A DNA stretch of 64,000 nt from an uncultured Actinomycetes bacterium. GTDB lineage: Bacteria > Actinomycetota > Actinomycetes > Nanopelagicales > Nanopelagicaceae. The stretch lies in the NCBI GenBank assembly GCA_937888825.1, contig CALBFE010000016.1, positions 41,292-105,291 of the forward strand. The letters are read 5' to 3'. A model generated the notes under the pieces. That model was not told where the DNA came from and made no database searches. It was given only the letters and a program-made list of their open reading frames with translations. Shown piece after piece: positions 3,228 through 5,131 of the stretch; position 1 is the stretch's first letter; each line of letters starts with the position of its first letter. The position numbers were made by a program, and so were the translations under genes.

Positions 3228-3935
3228 ATGAATAAGCCAGCACCTATTGTTCTCGCCGTTGATACCAGTGATTTAGATATTGCCAAGCAATGGGTTAATG
3301 CAACTGATGGGGTTATCTCAGTTGTTAAATTGGGTTTAGAGTTTTATACAACTTTTGGAAACGACGGTATTAAAGCGATAGCAGAGAGTTGTGCTACTGA
3401 TATTTTTCTAGATTTGAAGCTTCACGACATTCCACATACTGTTGCTGCAGCCGCTCGTGCTGTTTCAATCTTGAGGCCTAAGTTTCTCACCGTGCATGCA
3501 TCAGGCGGAAGTGCGATGGTCCAGGCAGCAGCAGATGCAATACCTGCAACTCACATTACAGGTGTGACTATTTTGACTTCGCTCTCTGAAAGAGACGTTA
3601 CGGATATTGGATTCAAATCGCACGCCTTAGATTCAGCCGTTGGCCTGGCAAAAGTAGCCGTAGCGGGAGGAGCCAGGGCAATTGTCTGCTCACCGCTTGA
3701 AATCTTGGCCATTCGCGAAAATCTTGGCGGTGACATAACCATCATCACCCCGGGGGTTAGACCAGCGGACTCTGCTGGCGGTGATGACCAAGCGAGAACT
3801 ATGACACCGCGTGAAGCAATCGATCGCGGAGCAAACTATGTCGTTATTGGCCGTCCGATAACGCAAAGTTTTGTAAATGGTGCTCAAGCCATGCGTGAGC
3901 GAGCAATAGAGCTTGCTGAGCAGATTCTCAATTAA
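3228..3935 (+). CDS. pyrF: orotidine 5'-phosphate decarboxylase (PyrF type 1)
   Basis: Decarboxylates OMP to UMP, the last step of de novo pyrimidine synthesis. The 235-residue protein carries the catalytic D-K-D motif in its type 1 form (FLDLKLHDIPHT), the TVHASGG strand and a C-terminal phosphate-binding segment (VVIGRPIT). Many actinobacteria instead carry the longer type 2 enzyme. It follows pyrD after a 3-base gap and closes the pyrimidine gene run. Confidence 0.95.
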   Translation: MNKPAPIVLAVDTSDLDIAKQWVNATDGVISVVKLGLEFYTTFGNDGIKAIAESCATDIFLDLKLHDIPHTVAAAARAVSILRPKFLTVHASGGSAMVQAAADAIPATHITGVTILTSLSERDVTDIGFKSHALDSAVGLAKVAVAGGARAIVCSPLEILAIRENLGGDITIITPGVRPADSAGGDDQARTMTPREAIDRGANYVVIGRPITQSFVNGAQAMRERAIELAEQILN

Positions 3936-3960: not shown

Positions 3961-4833
3961 ATGGGAGCACCTCCAGTATTAACGCCACAGCAGCGCGCTG
4001 ATGCGCTAGCAAAGGCTGCAGCTTCCAGAAAACGGCGTGCAGAGGTTAAGTCAAAGATTAAATCGGGCGACTACACAATCGATACAGTTCTTGAACTAGC
4101 GCAAAACGATGATGCTGTAGCAAAAATGCGAGTGCGAGAACTATTGGAGGCACTCTCGGGCGTTGGAAAAGTGAGAGCACAAAGCCTTATGGAGAGATTA
4201 AATATCTCACCAACCCGTAGAATTGCAGGACTTGGTCGCCATCAAATTAAGGAACTTCGTAGCGAATTTATGAAAAGCACACATGCAGTTCGTCCTGGCA
4301 AACTTATTGTTCTCTCCGGTCCAGGGGGAGTAGGCAAAAGCACGGTTGCTGCTCTACTTCGTAAATCAGGAGACTTTTGGGTCAGTGTTTCGGCAACAAC
4401 TAGACAACCGCGAAACAATGAGCTTAACGGAATTGATTATTTCTTCATTTCAAGTGAAGAATTTGATCGCAGAATCAAAGAGGATGAGTTCTTAGAATGG
4501 GCCCAATTTGCTGGAAATCGTTATGGCACACCCAGTGTTGAAGTGCAGGATGCACTTTTGCGTGGCGAGAATGTGTTGCTTGAGATTGAAATCGATGGTG
4601 CAAAGCAAGTTAAAGCACATCTGCCACAAGCAATTCTCGTATTTCTAGAGCCACCTTCATGGGAGGAGTTAGTAGCTCGTCTTGAAGGGCGGGGAACCGA
4701 TGATCCAGAGAGAAGGGCTCAGCGGTTGCAGTTGGCCCAAGAAGAGCTTGCTGCAGCCTCATTTTTCGATCATGTCATCGTAAATGACGCCGTCGAGCGG
4801 GTCGTTGCACAACTGGTATCATTGGCCTCTTGA
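3961..4833 (+). CDS. gmk: fused actinobacterial integration host factor (mIHF) - guanylate kinase
   Basis: One uninterrupted 290-codon frame carries two proteins that are separate neighbours in other actinobacteria. Residues ~1-103 look like mIHF, the nucleoid DNA-binding protein (basic start, then [20 protein letters not shown] in an H2TH-like region, then [11 protein letters not shown]). Residues ~111-290 are guanylate kinase, which phosphorylates GMP to GDP: P-loop [10 protein letters not shown] at ~119-128, GMP-site segment SATTRQPR, then GIDYFF and [13 protein letters not shown]. There is no stop or internal frameshift at the join ([16 protein letters not shown]). It lies between pyrF and rpoZ as mihF and gmk do elsewhere. 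An internal ATG at residue 104 could also yield free kinase. Confidence 0.92.
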
Positions 4834-4882: not shown

Positions 4883-5131
4883 ATGGATGGCATTACAAAT
4901 CCACCTATTGATGAACTTCTAGACAAGAGCGGCTCTAAGTACAGTTTAGTTTTGTATGCAGCTAAGCGTGCTCGTCAGATCAATGCGTATTACTCACAGC
5001 TAGGCGAAGGTCTTCTTGAGTATGTTGGACCGCTAGTGGAGACACATATTCATGAGAAGCCATTATCAATCGCACTTCGCGAGATAAATGAAGGCTTACT
5101 CACGATTGAAAATCTAGAACCAACAGCTTAA
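4883..5131 (+). CDS. rpoZ: RNA polymerase omega subunit
   Basis: Small subunit that chaperones the beta' subunit of RNA polymerase. It has 82 residues from ATG 4883; the track start at 4784 would run into gmk. The omega signature is visible: [29 protein letters not shown], quoted here only as its first part ([15 protein letters not shown]) followed by AAKRARQIN, and a conserved tail [13 protein letters not shown]. It lies between gmk and coaBC, the standard actinobacterial order. Confidence 0.94.

Follow-up and report, generated by a model that had tools for sequence, protein, structure and literature searches.

A protein fusion of the nucleoid-associated factor mIHF and guanylate kinase in Nanopelagicaceae

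The window, a 64,000-nucleotide stretch from an uncultured member of the Nanopelagicaceae, carries at 3961-4833 (+) a single stop-free frame of 290 codons encoding a protein of 290 amino acids. Because the frame starts two codons after an in-frame TAG, no longer version of it exists. We assigned residues 1-103 (3961-4269, +) to an mIHF (actinobacterial integration host factor) domain and residues 113-290 (4297-4830, +) to a complete guanylate kinase (Gmk). Both halves scored above the curated cut-offs of their families. The NCBIfam model actino_IHF (NF041260) matched residues 5-103 with 124.6 bits (cut-off, 60), and guanyl_kin (TIGR03263) matched residues 113-288 with 219.3 bits (equivalog cut-off, 160.45); in Pfam, H2TH_5 (PF22525) covered residues 33-103 (89.7 bits; cut-off, 27) and Guanylate_kin residues 114-287 (149.9 bits; cut-off, 25.2). 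Between the two model matches lies a linker of nine residues, MKSTHAVRP (residues 104-112; 4270-4296, +), delimited by the loci of relatives and by low pLDDT. Its first codon, codon 104 (4270-4272, +), is an ATG in the context GAATTTATGAAA and constitutes a candidate start without a Shine-Dalgarno sequence. A first-pass annotation of this DNA had proposed an in-frame fusion with these domain boundaries and this internal ATG; with an open frame of 290 residues and both models above their cut-offs, we confirm a genuine mIHF-guanylate kinase fusion.

Both domains retain the signatures of their families. The PF22525 match and alignment place the S13-like H2TH fold, with its RR-x(2)-GLG DNA-contact region, in the fused mIHF domain, where TRRIAGLG aligns to SRRVRGLG of sIHF and TRRLRGLG of mIHF. 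Residues R23, R26, R86, G90, G92, and Q95 were invariant in an alignment of 73 diverse fused proteins. In the kinase domain, alignment with Staphylococcus aureus Gmk showed that the P-loop (GPGGVGKST) is kept, as are the residues that form the GMP site in known Gmk, and the P-loop together with GMP-binding and lid residues (residue 144, R148, R151, Y160, E179, Y188, G189-T190, R240, R244, and R255) was at least 95% conserved. PDB relatives of residues 3-104 were sIHF (4itq, also 6bek) and mIHF (6tob), and those of residues 112-288 were many Gmk structures. An AlphaFold2 model built with 73 fused relatives contained two well-folded domains (mean pLDDT, 94.1; pTM, 0.70), with pLDDT falling to 68 at residues 101-110; the predicted architecture is thus of two well-ordered domains with a flexible connection between them. 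The best PDB match of this model in Foldseek was Gmk of Mycobacterium tuberculosis (Rv1389).

The mIHF half belongs to the same family as mIHF of M. tuberculosis (Rv1388) and sIHF of Streptomyces coelicolor (SCO1480), both by NF041260 and by sequence similarity to 6tob and 4itq, and the genes for those proteins likewise immediately precede gmk and rpoZ (PMC6155035). However, they are free-standing proteins of ∼105 amino acids, whereas their counterpart in the window is the N-terminal part of a 290-residue polypeptide. M. tuberculosis Gmk (PDB 1s4q, 1znw) in turn shares the whole enzyme domain, with the P-loop and substrate residues conserved, but has a short tail, whereas the window protein has an N-terminal mIHF domain.

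A query search of the window's genome (1.37 Mb, 99% complete) returned this locus as the sole mIHF and the sole Gmk. We found one HU homologue in this genome and in each of seven related genomes (two in genome G095), and Lsr2 was not detected in any of these eight. The fused mIHF is thus one of few recognised nucleoid proteins in the window's genome. The neighbours of the fusion show conserved synteny, with pyrF (orotidine-5′-phosphate decarboxylase; 3228-3935, +) upstream and rpoZ (RNA polymerase omega; 4883-5131, +) downstream; the gene order in M. tuberculosis is mihF-gmk-rpoZ (PMC6155035).

The fusion is not confined to a single genome. Read codon by codon, none of 185 fused-type loci from 11 Nanopelagicaceae genera (g1, g25, g26, g27, g32, g33, g34, g35, g36, g39, and g40) had an interrupted frame, and one contained an ambiguous residue. 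The fusion query matched 272 of 296 genomes of the order, and the best ∼150 of these 272 matches were uninterrupted save at contig ends. Complete genomes and single-contig assemblies are among those with the open fused frame, including the complete genome of IMCC19121 (CP015605), matched at 96% identity. Between close pairs, dN/dS was ∼0.02-0.1 in the mIHF and Gmk domains alike, which indicates strong purifying selection on both. Fusion is the rule in most of the Nanopelagicaceae, and it occurs independently in Microbacteriaceae. Six lake metagenome loci (L051, L053, L054, L056, L057, and L059), from assemblies that bear the names Streptomyces griseus, Bifidobacterium breve, or Streptomycetaceae, are acI (Nanopelagicaceae) loci with 66-79% identity to the window, and these names look wrong.

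Six other genera of the family (g28, g29, g30, g31, g37, and g38) have two separate genes. The pairs match the window in genes, order, and neighbours and differ in lying in two frames, or in one frame with a stop. The conserved stop between the domains that the first-pass annotation had thought possible in relatives thus does occur, but on these other branches of the family, while every full-length close relative of the window has the open frame. Also borne out was its statement that in most actinobacteria mihF and gmk are neighbours without being joined: among the other families sampled from the class and the phylum, nearly all have them as separate genes. In the unfused family members, the two genes mostly overlap or abut, with an ATGA junction in many g31 and g38 genomes, TGATG or TAATG in others, and a GTG at most 4 nt from the stop in g29. 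At four loci (L098-L101), the junction is TAG-ATG, and nothing but one in-frame TAG, immediately ahead of the ATG, keeps the genes apart. Short gene overlaps couple translation through termination-reinitiation (PMC10666635). With overlapping or abutting, coupled pairs in the unfused relatives, stop loss is the simplest origin of the fusion.

To keep the fusion trait out of the phylogeny, we built a tree from the neighbouring genes pyrD, pyrF, rpoZ, and dfp, with the fused gene left out. Two fused groups were recovered: clade A, with the window (g1, g35, g39, and g40; 100% SH-aLRT), and its sister clade B (g25, g26, g27, g32, and g34; 89% SH-aLRT). Constraining A and B to one group gave a better tree that was not rejected (p-AU 0.689), and the four-gene tree alone cannot separate one A+B fusion from two. 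Genus g33 was left unplaced on account of a very long branch. Genus g36, with a linker of 20-21 residues, groups with the unfused g31, and its fusion is probably of separate origin. Linkers are otherwise short, with 5-11 residues in clade A and 9 in 76 of 78 clade B loci.

The linker of the sister clade carries a conserved start codon with a ribosome-binding site. In 70 clade B proteins (g25, g26, g32, and g34; less than 95% identical), an NTG stood at codon 105 or 106 in 64. Codon 105 was TTG, GTG, or ATG in 51 of the 70, where the amino acids and the codon use of the genes themselves predict 17.3, and 13 of the 19 without a start at 105 had ATG at 106. The z score of codon 105 (8.9) was the highest of 49 comparable Leu/Val columns (next highest, 5.6; spread, 2.3). 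Glu102 was encoded by GAG in 65 of 70 proteins, the highest fraction among 20 Glu columns, and the resulting pattern, (A/G)GAG-N6-NTG-(A), fits a ribosome-binding site followed by a start. Residue 105 underwent at least nine changes among Leu, Val, Met, and Ile on the tree, and its codon underwent 20 changes, compared with 28-45 at ordinary columns. On this strong evidence, all of it from sequence, the sister clade probably makes both the fusion and a free Gmk. At a separate site near the end of gmk, Leu288 (codon at 4822-4824), TTG was also well above expectation (28 of 46 Leu/Val codons in clade A and 30 of 55 in clade B), and this codon may belong to an overlapping signal for the downstream rpoZ. 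A promoter scan found nothing at the domain junction or at codon 288.

Re-initiation at ATG104, as the first-pass annotation had suggested for the window, fared less well. The idea found convincing backing in a conserved internal start in the sister clade only, but at codon 105/106 rather than at 104. Within the window's own subclade, ATG is kept at codon 104 in 39 of 42 genomes and replaced by TTG in two more (41 of 42 in all), but neighbouring subclades have no start there, and we found no conserved linker start codon with a ribosome-binding site in the window's species. Outside the subclade, position 104 is occupied by S, P, A, T, or K; codon 105 is a start codon in only 5 of 93 clade A genomes, and 18 of the 93 have no ATG, GTG, or TTG anywhere in codons 96-116. 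In those 18 genomes, the only sources left for Gmk are the fused polypeptide and its processing, and the window's lineage would by implication depend on an obligate fusion.

Production of a free Gmk from ATG104 alongside the fusion in the window's species is an alternative that we consider rather unlikely. The ATG followed by AAA or AAG in 39 of 42 genomes, with TTG in two others, is better conserved than the linker around it, and the strong start of the sister clade lies at nearly the same place. However, the window sequence, GAATTTATG, holds no Shine-Dalgarno at usable distance (3 nt spacing at best), and in the subclade GAATTT or GAGTTT directly precedes codon 104, too close to serve as one. 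The variability of position 104 beyond the subclade and the startless clade A genomes argue against it as well. Nor did RNA structure lend support, since the stretch near codon 105 is not unusually unstructured and gave no unfolding signal. Internal initiation in the window's species is therefore possible but unsupported.

The fusion also occurs outside the family. All 20 sampled genomes of group f36 are fused, one of them split at contig ends, and further fusions were found in two genomes of f34/g103 and in one genome of f52 (G893). A database Gmk of 280-300 residues with an N-terminal mIHF domain, the search proposed in the first-pass annotation, turned up in Microbacterium sp. NIBRBAC000506063: WP_223172673.1 has 298 amino acids, scores 69.6 bits with the actino_IHF model (cut-off, 60), and is named in RefSeq only as “guanylate kinase.” Fusion proteins of the sister clade pass the same cut-off. 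From 71% identity over 157 residues to this named record, we infer that f36 represents Microbacteriaceae. The Microbacterium protein and the f36 genomes share the domain order of the window, and the Microbacterium locus (L337) also shares its operon context, pyrF - fusion - rpoZ - metK, but their fusion differs in a more diverged mIHF domain (69.6 bits), a longer linker, and an independent origin. The f36 linkers contain no conserved internal start codon. The fusion arose repeatedly and independently, in the Nanopelagicaceae, in the Microbacteriaceae, and in the two smaller lineages (f34/g103 and f52/G893).

Two side observations concern loci of these groups. At L337 (NZ_CP072877.1, 437140-443610), a 465-kb “plasmid” bears pyrF, gmk, rpoZ, and metK, pyrF is split in two genes, and two Fic genes lie between gmk and rpoZ; this “plasmid” may be a piece of the chromosome. 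Further, with the fusion query, mIHF was not detected upstream of gmk or elsewhere in three f5 genomes (G040, G326, and G374) and six f34 genomes (G357, G467, G498, G514, G551, and G565); at mIHF-less loci (L176, L223, L226, and L243-L246), gmk is flanked by pyrF and rpoZ. In these genomes, mIHF would have been lost or strongly diverged.

Guanylate kinase is essential in bacteria generally. Since the fusion is the genome's only Gmk, its predicted kinase activity is likely, and because the two domains are the only copies of genes expected to be needed and keep their signature residues, both should be active in a protein translated as such in the cell. In our preferred reading, which we consider probable, the locus specifies a single bifunctional protein of 290 residues, in which an N-terminal mIHF domain and a short flexible linker precede a catalytically complete Gmk (GMP to GDP), and which would be the cell's sole source of both. 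It would have arisen when the stop codon between already overlapping, translationally coupled mihF and gmk was lost. In the period just after the genes were joined, the former start of gmk probably persisted as an internal start that yielded a free Gmk next to the fusion; the sister clade would have kept it, and the window's clade would have lost it and now rely mainly or wholly on the fusion.

The consequences for dosage and localisation depend on mIHF, a nucleoid-associated protein that binds and bends DNA (PMC3724605, PMC6155035) and that is essential in M. tuberculosis and among the ten most abundant proteins there (PMC6155035). Given that abundance, tying the two in equimolar amounts would either raise Gmk far above its usual level or bring mIHF far below its own. 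The internal start of clade B would allow Gmk to exceed mIHF, not mIHF to exceed Gmk. It is plausible that the kinase is held on the nucleoid in a 1:1 ratio with mIHF. A selected role for this localisation, in which mIHF would bring GMP kinase to the nucleoid so that GDP and dGDP are made beside replication and transcription, is nevertheless doubtful. Fusions that recur and last through whole families speak for such a role, as do the strong constraint on both domains and a flexible linker that would leave each of them able to work. However, across actinobacteria the two genes are neighbours and often overlap, so their proximity by itself would lead one to expect repeated fusion. Moreover, the sister clade appears to keep a free Gmk, which would defeat exclusive tethering, and in cells this small GDP spreads quickly by diffusion. 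The main benefit more likely lay in the fixed co-expression that followed loss of the stop.

Cleavage in the linker to give separate mIHF and Gmk is very unlikely. A short linker of variable sequence and lower predicted confidence speaks for it, but this linker holds no conserved cleavage motif, clade A linkers have almost no sequence in common, and the internal start of the sister clade would be needless. A sequencing or assembly error that deleted the stop, which the first-pass annotation had allowed for, can be dismissed: nothing at the window locus points to one, the 185 fused-type loci with the same open frame come from many laboratories and platforms, and the codon changes in relatives are typical of real coding sequence. 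One apparent fusion elsewhere, in G922 (L227), did prove to be caused by a run of N across the junction, and we discarded it; a stop is present in G895, of the same genus.

Although the two families and the operon are well known, we found no description of an mIHF-Gmk fusion in the literature (open-licence papers). The fusion seems undescribed even though it is present in public records, because databases list the fused proteins only as “guanylate kinase.” The NCBI type of the actino_IHF model, “equivalog_domain,” suggests that curators have met the domain inside longer proteins. For annotation, mihF appears to be missing from fused genomes although it is present within a “guanylate kinase.”

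Taken together, we tentatively propose, with somewhat less than even confidence, an undescribed and repeatedly evolved fusion of a nucleoid protein and a nucleotide kinase caught at two stages: the sister genera would also make free Gmk from an internal start, and the window's clade and the Microbacteriaceae would have lost that start, the obligate fusion holding GMP kinase on the chromosome. The loci provide a clear stepwise case of the passage from coupled genes to a fused gene. A nucleoid protein that is essential in mycobacteria and an essential enzyme would thus form one molecule in abundant freshwater bacteria and, separately, in Microbacteriaceae, which raises the questions of whether a metabolic enzyme is carried on the nucleoid and of how the cell manages when an enzyme is fixed at 1:1 with a DNA-binding protein that is normally very abundant.
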